Of a stretch of 64,000 nucleotides of DNA, positions 12,109 through 58,105 are shown piece by piece. The DNA is taken from contig JAPDOI010000900.1 of assembly GCA_029168955.1 (NCBI GenBank), positions 117,001 through 181,000 on the forward strand. The letters run 5' to 3'. Under the pieces are notes generated by a model. It ran no database searches, was not told the origin of the DNA, and saw only the letters and a list, made by a program, of their open reading frames with translations. The stretch comes from Aplectana chamaeleonis (Eukaryota; Nematoda; Chromadorea; Rhabditida; Cosmocercidae). Positions within the stretch are counted from its first letter, which is position 1, and each line of letters opens with the position of its first letter. Both the position numbers and the translations under genes were made by a program.

Positions 12109-12568
12109 AGGCATCGTACGCGCAGAAAACCGTATATTATTTTTTCATGTTTTTGTGTAGCTTGGCCTCTCTAGTGAACGAAAATGTCGAAGGAGCGCAT
12201 GAAAAACCTTCATTTGTAGAGAAAAGTCAATAGGAACACATTGTAAATACGAATTTGAAATTCGCGCCAAAATCCTTTATGAAGTTTTTCTGCTTTCGGA
12301 GGCCTCGTCACTCTCATTTTCGGAGTTTTTCTGCATGTGGAGTTCGTGCCGTAACTATTTTTCATGTTGTCTTACGGTCGCACCAACATTCTAGGAAAAA
12401 GTGCTAGATGACTGGTGAAAATTGGTGGCGGATCTTCATCTTTGACACCTTCCAACCTCATTGCCCAACGTTTTTGACGCACCAAAGTTTACCAGTGTGG
12501 TCTACCGGGCTCAATCATGAAATTGAGCCTGAAAAAATGAAAATTGATTTCCAGCGCAAACGATGCCT
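12109..12568. mobile_element. TTAA-flanked MITE, copy 1
   Basis: TTAA lies on both sides (12105-12108, 12569-12572). The ends AGGCATCGTACGCGCAGAAA and the complement of TTTCCAGCGCAAACGATGCCT form terminal inverted repeats. The TTAA target is the hallmark of piggyBac-type insertion, although the terminal bases differ from classical piggyBac ends. The 460-bp body has no coding capacity. Relatives are at 50.8, 51.9 and 52.4 kb, and an internal fragment at 27.3 kb. Confidence 0.75.
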
Positions 12569-20180: not shown

Positions 20181-20409
20181 GACGCATTCCAGAGGCACGA
20201 TTCAGATGTCAACACCTACGTCGGTTCAGTTACCTATGTCTAAGGTATTTGTGCCTCGCTCAGTTTCTGAAGACCTCGCTCAAACGCTGGCGGTCCCAGA
20301 TGGAGGCTCAGCAAGCGGCAGCACCAAAGTTATTTTTAAATACTTCTCATTATTTTTCCGCTGTTCCTCCGCTATTTCTTGTCTATTGCATGAAAAAACC
20401 GGGAGATGA

Positions 20410-22399: not shown

Positions 22400-23388
22400 T
22401 GCAGCCACGTCGAGGGTTCTGTCATAAGTGAGGAGCTGGGCGACCAATAATGGATTCGTCCATAGGTGCATTGTGGTCAGCGTGGTTGGTCTCTCCAAAC
22501 AATTAAACAAATGTGCCGTATCGTGGCCGTGGCATCCACAGTCCGGGCAAACGTCCAATTTGCTGTTGTCAATCTTGCTGACGTAGGTCATAAGCATAGC
22601 AGAGCGACCACAGCACAGCGATGCCAGGATGCATCTGGCCCTCCTTCCGAGTTGAGACTCGAGTGTGCAGACCCGGGGCGGCACCACTCCCTGGATGGGA
22701 TTCACCACAGCTTTCTCCAGATGACACCGTACGAACTGTGTGTGCTCCTCGCGCAACAGACGGAGTCGTTCTTGCTGTGAATCGTGCCATCATTGCAAAT
22801 TGACTTTGCTAGGAGCATCGGCGAATGGCTCTCTGATGTCTCTATCCCTGACAGGGTTCAGCACTCTCCATGAGGGGTGGTTGGGTTGCTTCATGATATT
22901 GTATAAAAATTGTTTGGCCTTAAGATTACAGTGCTCCTTTGCTGGCCGAAGTATGGCATTGTATGTCCTGGGAATAGTTTCCTTGCTACTGCCCCATGAT
23001 ATACCGCCTAGGGCCCTGAGCACATTAGGCTTCGCTTCGACGACGGCCTGCTTCTGCTCGGTGTTCTTATGAAACTTGAGCGATAGATCGAGCACCAGAT
23101 TGAGCAGTTTGTGGAAGCGAGCGGCAGGTAATCGATCTCCGTCCCATTCGACATGCGGGTGGGCGCTGTGCTCTCATGGATCCGTTGTGAGTACGGATAC
23201 CGACGATTTGGATGCAAAGATCCTAAGCATTTTGCTGTCAAAAAGCTTTTCAGTGTGACCAGGTACTCATTGATCTTGTAGGCGGGCACATGTATGTCCC
23301 GATCCCGACACATGATTGTCATATCATCGGCATAAGCGACCACCTTGATATCCTGCGGAGGGTCGGACATGTCTTCGAGGTACAGACT
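22400..23388 (-). pseudogene. M1 RT palm/thumb and C-terminal finger (3' part)
   Basis: Reading leftward from 23388: LYLEDMSDPPQDIKVVAYADDMTIMCRDRD (catalytic YADD intact), the connection and thumb, then 22361-22756 with DVCPDCGCHGHDTAHLFNC and DLWTNPLLVAQLL. Several frameshifts separate the blocks. The segment joins precisely to ..GGVLSPALFS at 28771 on the other side of the foldback insertion. Confidence 0.85.
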
Positions 23389-23400
23389 CTCAGACAATGG

Positions 23401-23925
23401 GATGGACCGACCGCGGACATGTTCCGTACCGACCGCGGACAGGTTGCGTACCGACAGCGGGATGGGCGACGTTTGGAACGCATTTCGCACGCGGTCGGCA
23501 CGCAAATTAGCGCGGTCGATACGCACGGCCACGCGGTCAGTACGAAATGCCACGCGGTTAGTACGCATCGCCACGCGGTCCGTACGTGTTGCCACGCGGT
23601 CGGTACGCATCGCCTCGCGGTTCATACGCACTGCAACGCGGTTAGTACGCATTGCCACGCGGTCAGTACGCAATGCCACACTGTCGGTACGCATTGTCGA
23701 GCGGTCGGTACGCACTGCCACTCGTTCAGTACGCATTGCCACGCGGTCGGTAGACATTGCTGCGCGGTCGGTACGCACTGCCACGTGATCAGTACGTCTT
23801 GTCACGCCGTTGATACGCATTGTCACGGGGTCGGTACGCAGTGTCACGCTGTCGGTACGCATGGACACGCTGTCGGGACGCATTGCCACGCGGTCGATAC
23901 AAATGTTGCTCGTAGGATTGACCGC
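23401..23925. repeat. 21-bp tandem array, left arm of the foldback
   Basis: About 20 units of consensus ACGCGGTCGGTACGCATTGCC. The period of 21 bp keeps frames open, giving spurious 7-residue repeat proteins (293 codons on minus, 213 and 147 on plus). The first units (23401-23460) read GTACCGACCGCGG, the inverted orientation. Confidence 0.92.
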
Positions 23926-25915
23926 GGTTAGTACGCACTCAACCGCGGAAGGCTCGATTTTATCACGCGGGCAGTACGAAACATTTTTAGACGGCCGCTA
24001 TCAGTACGCATGCACGTGCGGCAGGTAATCATTGCTTCCAATAAAATGGCGCTCTTTCGAAACGCATTAATACTCGGATGCAGGGTTTGTGGTCCCAAAT
24101 AATTGGAAATAAGCAAACGTTGGAAGTAGGGATGGGGCTTGGGGTAACGCACGAACAAGTTGAAACAGCCCAGAACCGCTGGCTTTCAAACAGCAAAGGA
24201 CGAGCTTTTTCAATCAACAACATCTAAAGTCTAGTTTGATTAGAGCCAGCAGACACGCTCAAAATGGTATCGATTTTATGACATAAATCAAAGGTTTGGA
24301 GCTGGTTGTATTGGGAACTGACGAAAAAACGGATAACGGGTAATTTCTTATCAGGTAAAAGTGGACGAGTCTTGCGGCGCGCGGTTGAAACAGAGAATAT
24401 TAGCAACAAGACGGTTGAAATAGAGAAGCCGATATACTATTACAGCCTATACTGAAAGGTTCACCTCATTGGAAGCATCAAAAACCAGCCAAAGTGGCCG
24501 TATTAGTACTATCAATCTGGACGATTTTGTATTTAGGGGCGGGGTTGCAGAGATTTTTCGATTTGTGTTGCTGGCATTTAGTAGTTTTGACTCGTTTTTG
24601 ACGCCTCCAACGGCGTGAGCAGTTTACTAGGAGCCATGCGGCTTCAGAAACGTAGTTATCTAAACAACTTTTTTGAGCGTGTCTGCTGCTTTTGAATGAG
24701 CCTCGGCGGAGCAAGCAGAGAAGCGATCGGTCATGGCAAAATAAGGATATCTCGACATGATAAACCCAATACGCCATACTTCAACCGGCTCTAAATGAGT
24801 GAGCTAGGTCCCTGTCAGAATTGGATGAAAAAATCGCCGTAACCCGCCTTGGCCGACCCGGTCGAAACGTATGAAAAGCATGGACGATGGAGGTTGCAAA
24901 AAGCACTCGGGGTCGTATTCGCCATCAACCCGCCGGGAAGTAGAAGGAAATATGGGGTGATATTTCAGTACGAAATGCGCGCCCCACGGCCCCCTCTCGC
25001 CTCCCTTGGCTTCCCTCGCGACCGCCGGAGTTTTTCGCATCGGATCGCTGGAGAGTACTCGCTTCTCGATAGAACCTTCATCTTTCCGCAGTGATATCGC
25101 TACGTAACACAGTTTGTATTTCCATAATACACAGTGTAAGATGGGTTGATCTGTTGCTCTGCCGCGCGCGGTATCAACCCTTGCGTTTCCTTCGACTTCT
25201 CTCGGCGGGGTGTTGGCGAATACGTTTTTAAGCCCACCTCATTCACGTCTTTCGTGATTATCGACCGGGCTGGCTACGGCGATCGGCCAACTATGATCGA
25301 GGCCCTAGCCGTTCCAAGCCTACCGCGTGTTTAGCTCAAAATCGCCCCAGCCGCGATCCAGCTGGAGAGGTGTGGTTTTGTTAATTTCATGTTAATGAAA
25401 AACAAGGTGCACACTCACGCCGCTTTGTGGCGTACCTGTAGGCACGTATTATGACGCATCGAATGATGGAATCGTTGCCAAATGAGTACTTAGATATTAT
25501 CGTTCCTCGAAACCCAGTCCGGTCCCACACACTTTCACCTGGGAGCGATGCATACCTGCTGCGTGCTTACCAACCGTCGTCATTTTCAAATAAAACTTTC
25601 GTGTTAGGAGGAATTTTACTACATTTCTTCAGCCTAAGAAGACATTTCTTGTATGTATTTTACAATATTCCGTTTCTACTCTCGCACTTCCTTCCTTTGT
25701 CTTTTTCCTCATCCTTCTATAAAATTCAATGTGTTAATCGCGTTGTGAGCTTAGTACTCGTGTTCTATTTAACGAATTCCCATGGGATCGAACGTTCTCG
25801 TTGAGAGTGATTGTGGACCCTTTTTAATGGCATACGCCAGCTGTTGAAACTGATTGTACTGTCATTATCGGGCTGAAAGTCCGCTCCACGATTGCGACGA
25901 GTCGCTGTTTCAGCA

Positions 25916-26003
25916 CGCAGCACAATTATAATCGTGCTGGGAGAAGGGGTAATTGTGTCGGGACCCGCTAGTCCAGCACGATTATAGTCGTGCTGCCACC
26001 GCG
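25916..26003. repeat. Hairpin with ATAATCGTGCTGG core
   Basis: GCAGCACAATTATAATCGTG pairs with CACGATTATAGTCGTGCTGC across about 40 bp. The word ATAATCGTGCTGGGAGAAGG is shared with the neighbouring MITE at 26.4 kb, so the two are related. Confidence 0.7.
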
Positions 26004-26334
26004 TCTGTCCGCAACTATCCGCTGATAAACTCGCTCTTCTCTGCAAGAAATATTTTTATTTGAGTCCACGTGAAAGGACATTTGTCGATGAGTTCCGCAA
26101 AAATTGAAACCATCAAATTTTGACTATTATTACTGAACCGTTCATAGGCATTACTACACCAAATTGAACAAGAAGATGAACAATAGCATAAATCAGAAGG
26201 GCAAGACGATCGAGATCAAGACAAAGAGCAAGAAATAGTAAAAGATCGAGATCAATAAACAGAAGGCAAAAAGAGAAATATTGCCTTGACAGCCAAATAA
26301 ATAATTGCTTTCAAAAAATCAATAATTAAGTAGT

Positions 26335-26525
26335 GTCGTTCTCTGAGCTAAATTCCGGACCGCGACTGCGGACTACGACTGTTGCATCATGAGACACGTG
26401 ATAATCGTGCTGGGAGAAGGGTGAATCGTTACGGGAAAAAGCGGCCCCAGCACGGCTAACACGTGTCGTATGATGCAATAACCGTAGTCCGCAAATGCGG
26501 ACCGGAATCTGATCCAGAGAACGAC
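26335..26525. mobile_element. 191-bp hairpin MITE
   Basis: The left half (GTCGTTCTCTGAGC.. GCGGACTACGACTGTTGCAT) and right half (ATGCAATAACCGTAGTCCGC.. CAGAGAACGAC) are inverted copies over about 85 bp per arm, with mismatches. There is no coding content. It sits at the edge of a TAAA-rich tract. Confidence 0.8.
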
Positions 26526-26715
26526 AATAAATAAATAAATAAGTAAACAAATCAATTAACAAATAATTAAATAAATAAGTAATTAAATAAAAAGTGAATA
26601 AATGAGTAAATATAATAGTAAATAAATAAATAAGTAAATAAATGAATAAGTAATTAAATAAAAAGTGAATAAATAAATAAATAAAATATTAAATGAATAA
26701 ATAAGTAGTTATTAA
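26526..26715. repeat. (TAAA)n-like low-complexity tract
   Basis: AATAAATAAATAAGTAAATA-type sequence continues for about 190 bp, immediately after the 26.4-kb MITE. Confidence 0.9.
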
Positions 26716-27279
26716 ACTGAAGAAAAGTTTCACATTAACAAAGAGATGAAAACGAGGAGAAGAAAAAAGTATCTGGAGTTGCAAAGAATGATAAGAGAGT
26801 GAAGAAGATAAAAAGAGAGCAATAGGAGAAATTGGAAAGTAGGAAGAAAAACCCATGCGACATGAAGGGAATCGCTATTTTGTAGTTCACTTTCTTGGGC
26901 ACTCCGGTGGGGACGGGAGAAAAAGTTTATGGGGTCGCCACTGGCGTGTTCGATAGTGGGGTGATCAAGGAGGTCATAGAGGTTTCGGGTGACGAAGAAC
27001 TCGTTAGGGATATCAATTCTGGCCAGTGGAGATTCGAGCATTTATTTGAATCGTGCGTGATTGTGATCAAGGTAGCCTCTCCCGTGTTATCAACTTTGCT
27101 AGCATCATTTTCAATTTTTTTTGCACAATTGAGCCATTCGGGCTAGGTGACATCACCCACAAAACTTGAGCCAGAGGACTGCTGTGGGGTCGATCAAATA
27201 GCACTTCTGTATCGATCATCTAACACTTTTTCGATGATTTTTTATACAACCGTCGAACAACATAGAAAACTTTTTTGGC

Positions 27280-27480
27280 GCAAAAATTCCTCAAAAATGA
27301 CAGTGACGAGCAGATGCAGAAAAACGCCAAAAACGATTTTGACGCGAACATCAAATCAAATTTAACAATGAATTCAGACTAGTTTTTCTTCACAAATGAA
27401 GGTCTGTCAGAGGCCCTTTTGACAATTCCGTTCTTTAAAGAGACCAAGCAATACAAAAACATGAAAAAATGTTTAGATTT
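27280..27480. mobile_element. Fragment of a TTAA-flanked MITE
   Basis: Read on the minus strand this resembles 12140-12320 of MITE copy 1 (TTTTTTCATGTTTTTGT.. CCTTCATTTGT.. TTTTTCTGCA). The terminal inverted repeats are absent, so it is an old fragment. Confidence 0.5.
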
Positions 27481-27999
27481 TTGATTTCGATTTTCTTTTA
27501 TTTTAATTTTTGTAGATTTAGATTTTCCTCATAGCTCAAAAATCTTGTGGTGCACAGATAACTCAAAATTGATATTTGACCCTCACTATGGCGAAAGTCA
27601 GCAAGAGCCCAGGACAAAAACACACAAAACAGCTCATAACCGGCTATAATTGAAATCACTCCGCCCGTTCATGTTGTTGCTCCATCCTCGAATAACGATT
27701 TTTTCAAGAGCACTAACTGTTTTGAAGAAAACGAAATATAGGCTTGGGATAGATGAAGCCAGATGTGTGAATAAAATTGTGTTGCTCCATTTCAGCGGTT
27801 CTCGTCGAATTCTCAGTTCCAAAATGCAGCTGTCACAGAGACCAACCCATCTGACTCTCTACAGGAACAACAAGGTCAAAACTTCTCAGGAAAACCCTGC
27901 CTCTGAAGAATCGATAGGCTAAATGTGCAAACGCTCGAGATTTCGTTGTTTACTAAGCACGTGCATTTGCGTATGTACCACACTCACGGGTTCACTTGC

Positions 28000-28757
28000 T
28001 TACAAAATGCGTGCGATTGCGTGTCGGCAGCGCAAACTTACAAAACGACCTCGCCTCCGCAATTGCTCGCGTACCGAACGCGGGCGATTCCGTACTGCAC
28101 GCTTGTACGTAGCGAACACATCCGTGCCTACCGCGCGGACTGACAAACTGACCTCGCCTATAAAATTGCTTGCGTACTGAACGCGGGCGATTGCGTACTG
28201 CACGCTTGTACGTAGCGAACACACCCGTGCCGACGGCGCGGACTGACAAACTGACCTCACCCACCAGTTTTCCTGCGTACTGAACGCGAACACTTGCGTA
28301 CCGACCGTGCACACTGACAAACCTATTTCCCTCACCAGTTTGCCTGCGTGCTGAGCGCGGGCGCGTGCGTACTGAACGCCAACAATTTCGTACCGACCAC
28401 GTAAACTGACACAACGACCTCACCGACAAGTTTTCTAGCGAGCTGATAGCGGGCGGTTGCGTGCTGAACGCGAGCTCTTGCGTACTGACTGCGTGTGATC
28501 ACGTACCGACCGCAGCGAAAAGTCATGTTTCGTACTGACCGCGCGCAAAGATGACTGCGCGCGGTTAGTACGCCTCCATGGAAAATCGCAAACGGTTGGT
28601 ACGGAGCTCAGGCGTATCGACCGCGTGCACTATTTCGTTTTCGCGGTCAGTACGCAAATGCCCGCGTTCCGTACGGAATACATTTCTTGCACGCGGTCAG
28701 TACGATAGTGGCACGCGGTCGGTACGAGAAGCGATTTTTCGCCCGCGGTCGGTCCAC
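28000..28757. repeat. 21-bp-type tandem array, right arm of the foldback
   Basis: Most units read TGCGTACTGAACGCGGGCGA, the inverted form of the left-arm unit, with more divergence and spacers of 30-60 bp. From about 28560 to the end the orientation switches (CACGCGGTCAGTACGATAGT), mirroring the switch in the left arm. Frames of 145 and 111 codons are artefacts of the period. Confidence 0.85.
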
Positions 28758-28770
28758 CCCATTGTCTGAG

Positions 28771-31040
28771 CTGAAGAGGGCAGGCGATAAAACGCCGCCC
28801 TGCGGCAATAGGAATACTATTCGAAACATGGTTCTGGAACATAACTCCAGCTCGCCTTCCCTTAGTGAAGCCGATATCCAGCGCTTCGGCCACGGCGGTA
28901 TTGAAGAATCCAGTAGGTTGCTCGGCAAGACTCCAAGGTTCACTGTGTCGGAAGCCTTAGTGAGATCCAAGGCGACAGCTACAGTTTTCTGTGGCAGTTT
29001 TCTGTGGCTTCTTGGCGTTGAACCCGTCAATGGCAAAGCTAGTAATTTCCAGCAAAGCTGTCGTAGTGGAATGCAGCTTTCTGATTCCATGCTGAATCAC
29101 TTGCTTCTCATTAAGCTCCGCCAAGTCCTTCACGATCGATTTTTCAGCGGCCTTTGCGAAAGTGGACAGCAAGCTAATGGATCTGTCTTCCTTGACTGAA
29201 GCCTGAGGTTTCCCCGGCTTGGGCAGCGGCACAACGTGAGCTGTCTTCGAATTTTGGGGGACGGTGTAGGAACTGAACGAGGTGTTTATCAAATCAGTTA
29301 GAAGCGGAAGGATTTCATTCGGTATCTTCTTCAAGACAGCAGGACAGTTCCCGTCTGGACCAGTAGCTTTTGAGTTTCGCGTTTCCTTTATAACCTTCTC
29401 AACTTGCGTCGTAGAGAACGCTCCGGCCGTGCTCATAAGCGGGAGGCGGCACAGTTCTCGTACAGTCATTCTATCCTGCGGACCGCGTTTAGAACTGGTG
29501 ATGAAAAAACTCTTCTCGAGCGCATAAGCGGCTTCCTTTCCTGATTTGAATACACCGTTGTCGAATTCGATTGTGGAGACGGTAGCAGGCGAGCTCTTAC
29601 CCTAGAGCTTCCGAAATACCTTCAAAGTAGCTGCACTATCCATCTTCAAATCCAACTGCCCGATGAACTTTTCCCACTCTTCTTTCTTGTATCTGTCCAG
29701 ATCCTTTTTGATCTCACTGTCAAGCTCAGCAACCACGGGGCCCAGAAGATTAACCGCTCTCCTCGCATCTCTCGTTCAAATTTTGTCGAGGATTTCTCTG
29801 TTGACAATTGGAAAGAGCGTCTTGACGCGACCGGTAGGAGTAGCCGCATTCATGGCCTTGCGGATTACGTCAGATAAAAGGCACTCTTTCTGGCGCACGT
29901 CGCCATTCCACGGGTAATTTGCCGACAGGCGAAGCGCAACTTCACTGAACAGGCTCCAGTCTGCTCGGCCTAAATTAAGATAAGAACGTTGACGAACCCC
30001 AGAATAAGGAGCGAGAGAATTGCAGAGATCGATATAGATAGACGGGGACATGGTCACTTGACAAAGTAGCTGAGGTGGACCATGAGCAAGAGTTAGAGAG
30101 GTTGGACGAGGCAAGAGATAAGTCTGGGCTGGAAGATCGGCCGTTGGCAGGGAGACGAGTGGGCTGATCATCGTCTAGGATGACTACGTCGCATTCCTCC
30201 GCCTAATCTTCGACGTCATTTCCTCTAACATCAGAGCCAAGAGACCAGCAAAATGTATGAGCAATAGAATCGCCCGCAAATACAGACGAAGAAGAGAGGG
30301 AGCAGTCGTTAAGCTGTTTAAGGAGGGAACAGGATCATAGGATGGGGGGCATGAGGCGGTAGGGGGAATATAGATGTTGAAGAGAGAAAGGGGAGTTTTA
30401 AAGGGATATGGACCGGGAGGTACTCGAGAGTACCGTCTGTGAGAGTGTTAGGTCTCAGGTGTGAAGGAAGAGTAGATAATATGAAAGTGGAAACTCCTCC
30501 GCCGAGAGCTGACCTTGGAGCATGGTAAGAAATATAGCCTGGGATATTGGGATGAGGATAGGTAGGGGATGGACAGAGCTTGGTTTCTTAAACCATGATC
30601 ACGTCTGGACGGTAACTACGTGCAAAGAGAGAGAGCTCAGAAAGCTTGACACGAAGGCCGTTGAGATTTATATGTACAATGGAAGGGGGGCGATTGGAGT
30701 TCGAGGAAGAAGAGGTGGTAGGTGAGGAGCACAAGACACATCGAAAAGAAGAGTTATGGTGCCCCACAGAACTGAGACCCGAACAGAAGAGATGCACCCA
30801 CCTTTGGCATCCAGAGCATTGGACGCTTTTCCCTCTCCAGATGACATCCTTGCTGCATGTGGCACATGGGTACTTCTGCACGGGCCCAAGATTCCTCTCC
30901 ACGCCGGCCCTTAGCAGGCCAAAGGAGAGCTGCGGCCGGCCAGCACCTCTCCCAAGACAAAAATCCTTTTCGTGGAGGGGATGACGTAGGTTTGCACGGA
31001 GGTGATCTTCTTCCCTCCACACTGCTACGGCACGAACGTA
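28771..31040 (-). pseudogene. M1 2A-like, PHD finger, endonuclease, linker and RT fingers (5' part)
   Basis: From 31070 leftward: ..LLRAGVERNLGP (2A-like motif with Pro changed to Leu), a PHD finger (CATC..CSGC..WVHLFC..CVLC), then endonuclease start INLNGLRVKLSEL. The endonuclease middle (30590-30180) is in broken frames, with SDH region remnants at 30171-29776. The linker (KECLLSDVIRKAMNAATPTG) and RT fingers (28957-29469; SKATGPDGNCPAVLKKIPNE, PLPKPGKPQASVKEDRSISL) follow. An ATDTVNLGV-type palm motif and GGVLSPALFS reach the foldback junction. Many stops and shifts are present. Confidence 0.8.
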
Positions 31041-39302: not shown

Positions 39303-39952
39303 GTCCGCTCCCAGTTTTTTGAGCACCGAAATTTTACTACCATTTCTTTTGTAACCTTATTTGATTTTCGGAAGATTACGGCGTTTTTCGGGACAAACAA
39401 CAGCTACCGTAAGTAACGATCATCATACCACTAAAAACATAGAACCAGCAGCTCAGGTCGAGCTAATACACGATGTTACTATAACGAACCAGAAAATCCT
39501 AGCAATACAATTCGTTTTCGCGAATGCGCTTGACGCTCAAGACACCACCCTTGTGGGGTGCTTCCTCCATGTGAGAGAGATTTTCAAGAGTGAAGCCTAG
39601 CTAGCTGGGATGAATCCGGGCGGAGTAAGCAGCGGAGCGGTCGGTCATGGCAGTGATAAGGAGATTTTGACATGATAAGCCCGATAAGCCTTACTTCTAC
39701 CGGCTCAAAATGAGAAAGCTAGGCTATAAACCCGCGCTATAGAATTGTGATATGATAGCACTTTCACACGTTAATACCAAACATCCCGTGCATGACTTTG
39801 TAGATCATTTTCAGGTCAATTCGCTTTCTTGGCCGCTCAAGTTTTGCAAAATGAGGCTTCAATAATTTCAGGGTATGGAGTTTTCATACGAAGGTAAGCC
39901 AGAATCGTTTTGATGACAGCAATAACTGAGTGATAAACAAACACGTGCACGG
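39303..39952. other. Gap with a dispersed repeat
   Basis: Segment 39608-39727 (GGCGGAGTAAGCAGCGGAGC.. CCGGCTCAAAATGAG) is a second copy of the repeat at 24712-24810. The 79-codon frame at 39361-39600 has no recognisable feature. Confidence 0.4.
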
Positions 39953-39963
39953 TAGAGTGAGGA

Positions 39964-40330
39964 TCGAATATTCGAGGTCGAATAAATAATCGAATTTTTC
40001 GAACGAATTTTCATTCGAACATTCGAATGAATATTCGAAAAGTGTGAATATTCGAACATTATTCGAATTCGACTATTCGCAAAAGGTGAATATTCGAATA
40101 TTATTCGAATTCGACCATTCGGAAAAGGTGAATATTCGAATATTATTCGAATTCGACTATTCGGAAAAGGTGAATATTCGAATATTATTCGAATTCGACT
40201 ATTCGGAAAAGGTGAATATTCGGATATGATTCGAATTCGAATATTCGGAAGAGGTGAATATTCGAACATTATTCAAATTCGATTATTCGCAGAGGCGAAT
40301 ATTCGAACGTTATTCGAATTTGAATACCCG
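39964..40330. repeat. 42-bp AT-rich tandem array (left end)
   Basis: GGTGAATATTCGAATATTAT-type units recur exactly every 42 bp (40086, 40128, 40170, 40212, 40254), with degenerate units on both sides. Every unit is self-complementary around GAATTCGAA/TTCGAATA. Confidence 0.93.
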
Positions 40331-43439: not shown

Positions 43440-43600
43440 GAATTTCGAATAGTCGTTCGTTCGAAATAAAAAATGAACGAATTTATTCGAAATTCGTTCT
43501 TTCGAAATAAAAAATGAACGAATTTATTCGATATTTGTTCGTTCGAAATAAAAAATGAACGAATTTATTCGAAATTCGTTCGTTCGGTCTCTTTTTTAAA
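43440..43600. repeat. 41-bp AT-rich tandem array (right end)
   Basis: TCGAAATAAAAAATGAACGA begins at 43461, 43502 and 43543, i.e. every 41 bp. It is directly followed by the right terminal inverted repeat of the hAT-like element. Confidence 0.9.
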
Positions 43601-54504: not shown

Positions 54505-57500
54505 TATTGCGGGACGCATCTAGAAGTGCGCGAAGCTTCGGGAACGTGTGCGGAACCCAGCTATAAGTGCGCCAAGTGCCGGGGAACGTGTGCAGGACCC
54601 AAGTAGAGGTGCGCCAAGGGGAGGAGAACGTGTGCAGGACCCAACTAGAAGTGCGCCAAGCGCCGGGTAACGTATGCGGGACCCAACTAGAACTGTGCTG
54701 AGCGCCGGGGAACGTGCGCGGGACCCAACTAGAAGTGCGCCAAGCGCCGAGAAACGTGTGCAGAACCCGAATCTAAGTGCGCCAAGCGACGGGAAACGTG
54801 TGCGAGACCCAAACAGAAGTGCGCGAAGCTTCGGGAACGTGTGCGGAACCCAGCTGTAAGTGCGCCAAGCGCCGGGGAACGTGTGCAGGACCCAAGTAGA
54901 AGTGCGCCAAGCACCGAAAACGTGTGCGGGACCGAACTATAAGTGCGCCAAGCGCCGGGGAATGTATGCGGGACGCATCTAGAAGTGCGCCAAGCGCCGA
55001 GAAACGTGTGCAGAACCCAAGTAGAAGTGCGCCAAGCACCGAAAACGTGTGTGGGACCGAACTACAAGTGCGCCAAGCGCCGGGGAATGTATGCGGGACC
55101 CAAACAGAAGTGCGCCAAGCGCCGAGAAACGTGTGCAGAAGCCAAGTAGAAGTGCGCTAAGCGCCGGGAAGGTGTGCGGGACCCGAATCTAAGTGCGCCA
55201 AGCGACGGGAAACGTGTGCGAGACCCAAACAGAAGTGCGCGAAGCTTCGGGAACGTGTGCGGAACCCAGCTATAAGTGCGCCAAGCGCCGGGGAACGTGT
55301 GCAGGACCCAAGTAGAAGTGCGCCAAGCACCGAAAACGTGTGCGGGACCGAACTATAAGTGCGCCAAGCGCCGGGGAATGTATGCGGGACGCATCTAGAA
55401 GTGCGCCAAGTGCCGGGGAACGTGAGCGGGACCCATCTAGAAGTGCGCTAAGCGCCGGGAAGGTGTGCGGGACCCGAATCTAAGTGCGCCAAGCGACGGG
55501 AAACGTGTGCGAGACCCAAACAGAAGTGCGCGAAGCTTCGGGAACGTGTGCGGAACCCAGCTATAAGTGCGCCAAGCGCCGGGGAACGTGTGCAGGACCC
55601 AAGTAGAAGTGCGCCAAGCACCGAAAACGTGTGCGGGACCGAACTATAAGTGCGCCAAGCGCCGGGGAATGTATGCGGGACGCATCTAGAAGTGCGCCAA
55701 GCGCCGAGAAACGTGTGCAGAACCCAAGTAGAAGTGCGCCAAGCACCGAAAACGTGTGTGGGACCGAACTACAAGTGCGCCAAGCGCCGGGGAATGTATG
55801 CGGGACCCAAACAGAAGTGCGCCAAGCGCCGAGAAACGTGTGCAGAAGCCAAGTAGAAGTGCGCTAAGCGCCGGGAAGGTGTGCGGGACCCGAATCTAAG
55901 TGCGCCAAGCGACGGGAAACGTGTGCGAGACCCAAACAGAAGTGCGCGAAGCTTCGGGAACGTGTGCGGAACCCAGCTATAAGTGCGCCAAGCGCCGGGG
56001 AACGTGTGCAGGACCCAAGTAGAAGTGCGCCAAGCACCGAAAACGTGTGCGGGACCGAACTATAAGTGCGCCAAGCGCCGGGGAATGTATGCGGGACGCA
56101 TCTAGAAGTGCGCCAAGTGCCGGGGAACGTGTGCGGGACCCATCTAGAAGTGCGCTAAGCGCCGGGAAGGTGTGCGGGACCCGAATCTAAGTGCGCCAAG
56201 CGACGGGAAACGTGTGCGAGACCCAAACAGAAGTGCGCCAAGCGCCGGGGAACGTGTGCAGAACCCAAGTAGAAGTGCGCCAAGCGCCGGGGAACGTGTG
56301 CAGGACCCAAGTAGAAGTGCGCCAAGCGCTGGGCAACGTATGCGGGACCCAACCAGAAGTGCGCCGAGCGCCAGGAATGTGTGCGGAACCCAGCTATAAG
56401 TGCGCCAAGCGCCGGGGATTGTGTGCAGGACCCAAGTAGAGGTGCGCCAAGCGCCGGGGAACGTGTGCAGGACCCAAGTAGAAGTGCGCCGAGCGCCAGG
56501 AACGTGTTCGGAACCACAGTAGAAGTGCGCCAAGCGCCGGGCAACGTATGCGGGACCCAACTAGAACTGTGCGGAGCGCCGGGGAACGTGTGCGGGACCC
56601 AACTAGAAGTGCGCCGAACGCCAGGAACGTGTTCGGAATCACAGTAGAAGTGCGCCAAGAGCCGGAGAACGTGTGCGGGACCCATCTAGAAGTGCGCCAA
56701 GCGCCGGGAAGGTGGGCGGGACCCAAATTTAAGTGCCCCAAGCGCCGGGGAACGTGTGCAGAACCCAACTAGAACTGTGCTGAGCGCCGGAGAACGTGTG
56801 CGGTGCCCAACTGGAAGTGTGCCAAACCCCACAGAACGTGTGTGGGACCCAACCATAAGTGCGCCAAGCGCCGGGGAACGTGTTCGCGACCCAACTAGAA
56901 ATGTGCCAAGCGACGGGGAACGTGTGCGAGACCCCAAATAAAAAGCGCCGATTGCCGGAAAAAGAAAGAGAAAGTGTGCGGGACCCAATTGGGAGCGCTC
57001 CAAGCGTCGCGGACAGTGGGCGGGATCTAACTGGGAGCACGCCAAGCGCCGGGGTAAGTGTGCGGGACCCAACTGGGAGCGCGCCAAGCTCCGAGGAACG
57101 TATTCGTGACCACACTGGGAACACGCCAAGCGCCGGGGAAAGTGTGTGGGACCCAACTGGGAGCGCGCCAAGCACCGAGGAACGTGAGCGGGCCCCAACT
57201 TCGGGTGCGCCAAGCGCCGAGCAAAGCGTGAGGGACCCAACTGGGAGTGCGCCAAGTGGCGGGGAACGTGTGCGGGACCCATCTAGAAGTGCGCTAAGCG
57301 CCGGGAAGGTGTGCGGGACCCAAATTTAAGTGCGCCAAGCGACGGGAAACGTGTGCAGAACCAAAGTAGAACTGTTCTGAGCGACGGAGAACGTGTGCGG
57401 TGCCCAACTGGAAGTGTGCCAAACCCCACAGAACGTGTGTGGGACCCAACCATAAGTGCGCCAAGCGCCGGGGAACGTGTTCGCGACCCAACTAGAAATG

Positions 57501-58105
57501 TGCCAAGCGACGGGGAACGTGTGCGGGACCCCAAATAAAAAGCGCCGATTGCCGGAAAAAGAAAGAGAAAGTGTGCGGGACCCAATTGGGAGCGCTCCAA
57601 GCGTCGCGGACAGTGGGCGGGATCTAACTGGGAGCACGCCAAGCGCCGGGGTAAGTGTGCGGGACCCAACTGGGAGCGCGCCAAGCCCCGAGGAACGTAT
57701 TCGTGACCACACTGGGAACACGCCAAGCGCCGGGGAAAGTGTGTGGGACCCAACTGGGAGCGCGCCAAGCGTCGGGGAACGTGTGCGGGACCCAACTTCG
57801 GGTGCGCCAAGCGCCGAGCAAAGCGTGAGGGACCCAACTGGGAGTGCGCCAAGCGCTGGTAAAAGTGTGCGGGACCCAACTGAGAACGCGCCAAGCGCCG
57901 GGGAACGTGTGTGGAACCCAACTTCGGGTGCGCCAAGCGCCGAGCAAAGCGTGAGGGACCCAACTGGGAGTGCGCCAAGCGCCGGGGAAAGTGTGTGGGA
58001 CTCGAATTATAAAGCGCCAAGTGCCGGGGAAAGAGGGCGGGACCCAACTGCGAATAGGCCAAGCGTTACGGATCGTGTGTTCGACCCAACTGGGAGGACC
58101 GGCAA
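54505..58105. repeat. 42-bp GC-rich minisatellite with higher-order structure
   Basis: About 85 units of a 41-43-bp repeat, AAGTGCGCCAAGCGCCGGGG then AACGTGTGCGGGACCCAACTAG. The left two-thirds (to about 56750) use this form. From about 56940 a second variant dominates (GGGAGCGCGCCAAGCGCCGG). Blocks repeat at a larger scale: 54924-55160 recurs at 55631-55867 (707 bp apart) and 56859-57280 at 57456-57880 (597 bp apart). The 42-bp period leaves frames open on both strands (up to 259 codons); these are not genes. Confidence 0.95.

Follow-up and report, generated by a model that had tools for sequence, protein, structure and literature searches.

The window analysed here is a stretch of 64,000 nucleotides from the nematode Aplectana chamaeleonis (contig JAPDOI010000900.1, positions 117,001 to 181,000), in which a CR1 sequence is interrupted by 5382 bp with long, internally repeated inverted arms. 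This raises the question of what kind of mobile element the insertion is and which enzyme moved it. Positions 23389-28770 of the window are a complete DNA transposon inserted in CR1. It is likely that this is a non-autonomous cut-and-paste element of the foldback form, moved in trans by a transposase encoded elsewhere. The moving enzyme probably belongs to a group other than that of the foldback elements it resembles because the element duplicates only two bases on insertion.

Boundaries and structure of the inserted element

An initial annotation made from the letters alone had fixed the boundaries to the base from the interrupted CR1 codons and had proposed a 2-bp duplication of CT. Both ends were found exactly where it placed them. 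The flanking letters are ACAGA-CT on the left and CT-GAAGAG on the right. When the flanks are joined with one CT removed, they align, ungapped where they meet, to two further CR1 copies of the window in which the site is uninterrupted, at 5835-5239 (78% identity) and 2219-1622 (76%); two weaker matches, the alignments of which were not viewed, also span the junction. Since the joined flanks align through the junction to empty CR1 copies, the limits of the insertion and the CT duplication are exact. The 28-bp ends lie in inverted orientation with 27 of 28 positions paired, which agrees with their description as near-perfect. The sequence CTCAGACAATGGGRTGGACC is present at both ends with zero mismatches and has no further match in the window at up to three mismatches (chance expectation from shuffles, 0.01).

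The core motif GCGGTCGGTACG, allowing up to three mismatches, occurs 55 times in the window copy, with 51 of these occurrences within the arms; one shuffled version of the copy contains it 3 times. The arms had been described as arrays of a 21-bp unit. This holds for the left arm, where repeat detection places a 21-bp array of 18.6 units at 23511-23900, but the right arm is mostly a higher-order repeat of 103-bp and 92-bp units that carry the same core and is not a plain 21-bp array. A switch in orientation of the outermost units, said to be mirrored in the two arms, was recovered on both sides (Table 1). The interior had been reported to contain no transposase, and a six-frame Pfam scan found no family above the cut-off there. 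With its long inverted arms of repeated units and variable noncoding middle, the window copy has the structure that defines the foldback class. No description of the element was found among the titles and abstract beginnings listed in literature searches, which is consistent with the view that it is undescribed, Repbase, Dfam and most subscription journals lying outside this comparison; the 12-base end string matches 5 papers of that literature, and the 4 that were listed are chance matches, judged by their titles.

Copies, target duplications and related families

The annotation had proposed that the genome be searched for these ends and that the flanks of many copies be aligned, and had held that a lack of other copies would speak against a new family. 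The 1.04-Gb genome contains 952 exact 20-bp ends (485 + 467), against 0 for the reversed-pattern control. One hundred of these ends were listed, in contig order, which restricts the sample of fetched pairs to the first contigs and makes it non-random. Among the 100 ends, 24 pairs are correctly oriented and less than 12 kb apart; all of these pairs were fetched and, with the window copy, give 25 copies. The other 52 ends have no exact partner within 12 kb or have a wrongly oriented one. The 2-bp flanks are identical in 25 of 25 copies, compared with 1-4 of 25 when the comparison is shifted by 1 to 3 bases, and the third flanking base matches in a single copy. The duplicated dinucleotides are TA (8), AA/TT (7), AC/GT (3), CA/TG (3), CT/AG (2), GA/TC (1) and AT (1). 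From this variety among identical 2-bp duplications it follows that the target dinucleotide is free, leaning to A and T. The termini read CT..AG in 50 of 50 aligned ends, which were selected by that sequence, and the empty CR1 site of the window copy fixes them independently. The element is abundant and has apparently been active recently.

Some arrangements of ends were set aside as single elements. The dinucleotides adjoining a plus/minus pair 29.6 kb apart on C2 (L035-L037; the L and C labels are our own) differ, which rules the pair out as one element. The junction flanks of a pair on C628 (L055/L056) also differ and, by eye, resemble each other in inverted order. At L038 two family ends stand back to back, 35 bp apart, and are apparently two separate insertions. 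Such ends were not found in the viral sequence collection.

Thirteen of the 25 copies combine an A-type and a G-type end, and in the other 12 both ends are of the G type. Identity between the window copy and L020 is 98.1-98.2% over the whole length of the window copy, with about 356 bp present solely in L020; between the window copy and L011 it is 88-91%. A second group, subfamily B (L019, L31_32, L33_34, L016 and L027), has an interior largely different from that of the window copy. Within it, two long central stretches of L31_32 are 95-97% identical to L019 and L027, and most of its remaining long stretches are 86-91% identical to them; the identity of L31_32 to L016 is 83-95%, and to L33_34 it is 86% in one stretch and 77-80% elsewhere. 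The arms vary in length among copies, the left array of L018 reaching about 1.2 kb and L33_34 holding an array of about 4.5 kb. With fixed ends, copies can be as short as 222 bp and as long as nearly 12 kb. L014 (222 bp) and L015 (462 bp) contain little beyond the ends and are still flanked by duplications; the sequences required in cis therefore appear to lie in the ends.

Additional ends in the genome share the terminus CTCAGACAATGGGG. There are 152 in which it is followed by a base other than T (controls, 0 and 1). Eight of these were sampled: L049, L050, L051 and L053 go on with CGGACTTA or CGAACTTA and differ in their subterminal sequence, L055 and L056 are members of the main family, and L052 and L054 are possibly chance matches. 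The pattern CTCAGACAATGGGGCGRACTTAYCGC gives 34 exact ends (control, 0), and one copy with such an end is 1877 bp long, has GC duplications and departs by one base from the 14-bp terminus at its right end. Judged by these sequences, at least two families share one 14-bp terminus, and probably more than two do.

The moving enzyme

Pfam scans were made in six frames for the window interior, L031 and L032, in five for L033, L057 and L058, and in the three plus-strand frames for L019 and L027, while L034 and the remaining copies were inspected as lists of open reading frames. The autonomous relative that the initial annotation had hoped for, with the same ends and a transposase, did not appear among the copies scanned. 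The sole transposase-related Pfam match in the subfamily B interiors is to the DNA-binding part of a mariner (HTH_48). Its reading frame is broken and, by eye, it is preceded by TA and a mariner-like end, so that it is most likely a nested insertion and was rejected as the partner; the fragment lies at about 3990-4555 of L032 on the minus strand, beside a palindrome of about 500 bp, and is also present in L019 and L027. Inside the 1877-bp relative (C1:2442310-2444186, from L049, L059 and L057) lies a mariner transposase that is intact and 337 residues long. This too is a nested element and not the partner because it is part of a complete 1234-bp mariner with its own 28-bp ends (25 of 28 positions paired) and TA on both sides. 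Taking away this mariner and one TA would leave a host element of 641 bp. A DUF5075 match in a read-through frame of L032 (23.4 bits, cut-off 22.6), in which no single stretch passes by itself, was taken for noise. A reverse-transcriptase frame of 414 codons with a weak RVT_1 match at 4494-5738 of L029, and similar frames seen by eye in L022, L042, L043 and L045, were assigned to nested or neighbouring retroelements. Codon-phase counts did not give a clear coding signal.

The known groups are compared here as they are characterized in excerpts of the published accounts. Among them, the CACTA/EnSpm elements and the wider CMC group (EnSpm, Mirage, Chapaev) appear to be the best match in form and duplication length. 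The enzymes of this group are DDE transposases with C(2)C and H(3-4)H motifs. The likeness lies in a terminal repeat that is short and gives way to units of 10-20 bp in either orientation; in CACTA elements such units, direct and inverted, fill subterminal regions of several hundred bases (PMC8978399), a length that the arms exceed in some copies. The target duplications of CMC elements are 2-4 bp (PMC4482050), a range into which the 2 bp of the element fall. As a tentative guess from form and duplication length, the enzyme is most likely a CACTA/CMC-like transposase, although we would not be surprised to see another candidate take its place.

Several observations weigh against this assignment. 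Genome searches with PF02992 (CACTA) and with PF06918, which we take to be a model for animal CMC proteins, gave 0 matches, a weak negative since the control genomes were silent too; a search with PF25273 likewise gave 0 matches with a silent control. The partner transposase was not found in any copy scanned. Additionally, the termini of the element are CT..AG, whereas those of the CMC group are CA..TG in most cases (PMC12730594).

Foldback elements of the Mutator type (FB, Tetris, Tm1) or of the P type (Galileo) have the same outline as the window copy, with long, internally repetitive inverted arms and a variable middle. The initial annotation compared the architecture to Drosophila FB, and FB and Tetris do share with it the internally repeated arms and a variable middle without coding capacity; the comparison was made by description and not by sequence. 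Tm1, a Mutator/foldback element of root-knot nematodes and thus of the same phylum, has composite inverted repeats of variable length and occurs in both larger forms and forms like miniature inverted-repeat transposable elements (MITEs). The likeness to FB is one of form only because Tetris and Tm1, which are of the FB type, make duplications of 8-10 bp (for Tm1 in 45 of 53 elements, mostly of 9 bp). Duplication length is the strongest feature measured, and with 2 bp in 25 of 25 copies it excludes a Mutator type. Galileo, of the P superfamily, has many enzyme binding sites within long, internally repetitive inverted repeats. It differs in its P-type enzyme and in its duplication, which is longer than 2 bp. 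We therefore regard an origin in either of these groups as extremely improbable.

A Tc1/mariner-type enzyme with relaxed target choice would account for the 2-bp duplications, of which TA is the commonest single one, and mariner-type MITEs are noncoding with a 2-bp duplication as well. These MITEs duplicate TA only, whereas the element duplicates any dinucleotide and 17 of its 25 duplications are other than TA. The intact transposase in the 1877-bp relative and the broken one in subfamily B would also speak for this enzyme if both mariners did not look nested, and we consider the explanation quite improbable. A Harbinger/PHIS enzyme is very improbable. The genome contains at least 143 matches to DDE_Tnp_4 (PF13359), and one PHIS group makes 2-bp duplications, but the targets of the PHIS groups (Harbinger, ISL2EU, Spy, Pangu, Nuwa) are given as AT, TWA, ANT, CWG or TNA, or as none (PMC4482050), and not as the free dinucleotides seen in the 25 copies. 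Compared by eye, no listed DDE_Tnp_4 match lies within 10 kb inward of a listed end. The nearest cases are on C1921, where a weak match containing six stops stands 14.7 kb inward of an end, and on C637, where a match is about 10 kb away from an end on its outer side.

The elements might instead owe their movement to a DDE superfamily that has not been recognised yet. This would be a new cut-and-paste superfamily in which one enzyme, acting on the terminus CTCAGACAATGGGG and on arrays of a GTACCGACCGCG-like site and making free 2-bp duplications, serves a clan of foldback families, some with copies of more than 11 kb, in one large genome. That several families share one terminus is in its favour, as is the fact that no known group checked fits terminus, duplication and arms together; the Pfam scans, in turn, gave no transposase except nested mariner sequence. 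The missing transposase is a weak argument, given that few copies were scanned, and CMC subgroups such as Mirage may lack a Pfam model, which also counts against a new superfamily. We hold this explanation to be rather unlikely.

For the preferred reading, a non-autonomous foldback element mobilized in trans, the following mechanism is proposed. A transposase made elsewhere in the genome would recognise the 14-bp terminus together with the core motifs, which would act as an array of binding sites, and would cut the target with a 2-base stagger and move the element in trans. Such arrays might favour a copy that competes for the enzyme. Slippage or unequal exchange would lengthen and shorten the arrays and in this way account for the differences in arm length and for the 222-bp copy, reduced to little more than its two ends. 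That a foldback clan of high copy number and apparently recent age makes 2-bp duplications indicates that the foldback form probably arose again with a different enzyme. The copies, which keep fixed ends from the smallest to the largest, offer a natural way to test if arrays of binding sites promote amplification.

Feature coordinates and other repeats of the window

The features of the window copy are collected in Table 1. Two places in the window outside the element resemble parts of its interior: 12139-12330 on the minus strand is 74% identical to 27282-27470, and 39619-39723 is 83% identical to 24705-24808.

Table 1. Coordinates of the window copy and its target duplication (positions in the window).
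Feature	Position	Strand	Basis
Target duplication CT, left copy	23387..23388	.	Flank comparison and empty CR1 site
Terminal inverted repeat at the left end, 28 bp, of which the outer 14 bp are CTCAGACAATGGGA; related families share the G form of this sequence	23389..23416	+	
Three outermost left-arm cores, CGTACCGACCGC-like, opposite in orientation to the remainder of the arm	23403..23458	-	Core search
Array of the left arm, 21-bp units (about 20) carrying core GCGGTCGGTACG	23491..23910	+	Repeat and core searches
Last three left-arm cores, irregular spacing	23924..24008	+	Core search
Interior, transposase not found; 98% identity with L020, which has about 356 bp extra mid-element	24020..28035	.	
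Interior palindrome, 92-nt arms, 77% complementary, 31-nt loop; adjoins AATA-rich tract	26323..26537	.	
Right arm, 103-bp and 92-bp units holding core GCGGTCGGTACG	28036..28489	-	Repeat and core searches
Outermost part of right arm, orientation switch in 7 of 8 cores, mirroring the left arm	28561..28756	+	Core search
Right terminal inverted repeat; inward reading CTCAGACAATGGGGTGGACCGACCGCGG	28743..28770	-	
Target duplication CT, right copy	28771..28772	.	Flank comparison

Sequences resembling what we take to be the nematode spliced leader were also observed. At up to five mismatches there are 10 in the 362 kb examined, a count to which no chance expectation is attached; one of them is free of mismatches (L059) and two lie in the window. 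Seven are followed by GT, at window positions 20223 (+) and 20942 (-) and at L040 3696, L042 5235, L059 85, L025 5146 and L017 2317. An Rfam scan of L049, L059 and L057 called no spliced-leader RNA. These sequences, some of which lie inside element copies, are perhaps dispersed leader-RNA pseudogenes. Elsewhere in the window, a 3.5-kb array of 84 copies of a GC-rich 42-bp unit, with higher-order periods of 83 bp and 125 bp, occupies 54508-58049 shortly after a (TG)80 run, and two TTCGAA-centred arrays with units of 42 bp and 41 bp are found at 40032-40320 and 43444-43586.

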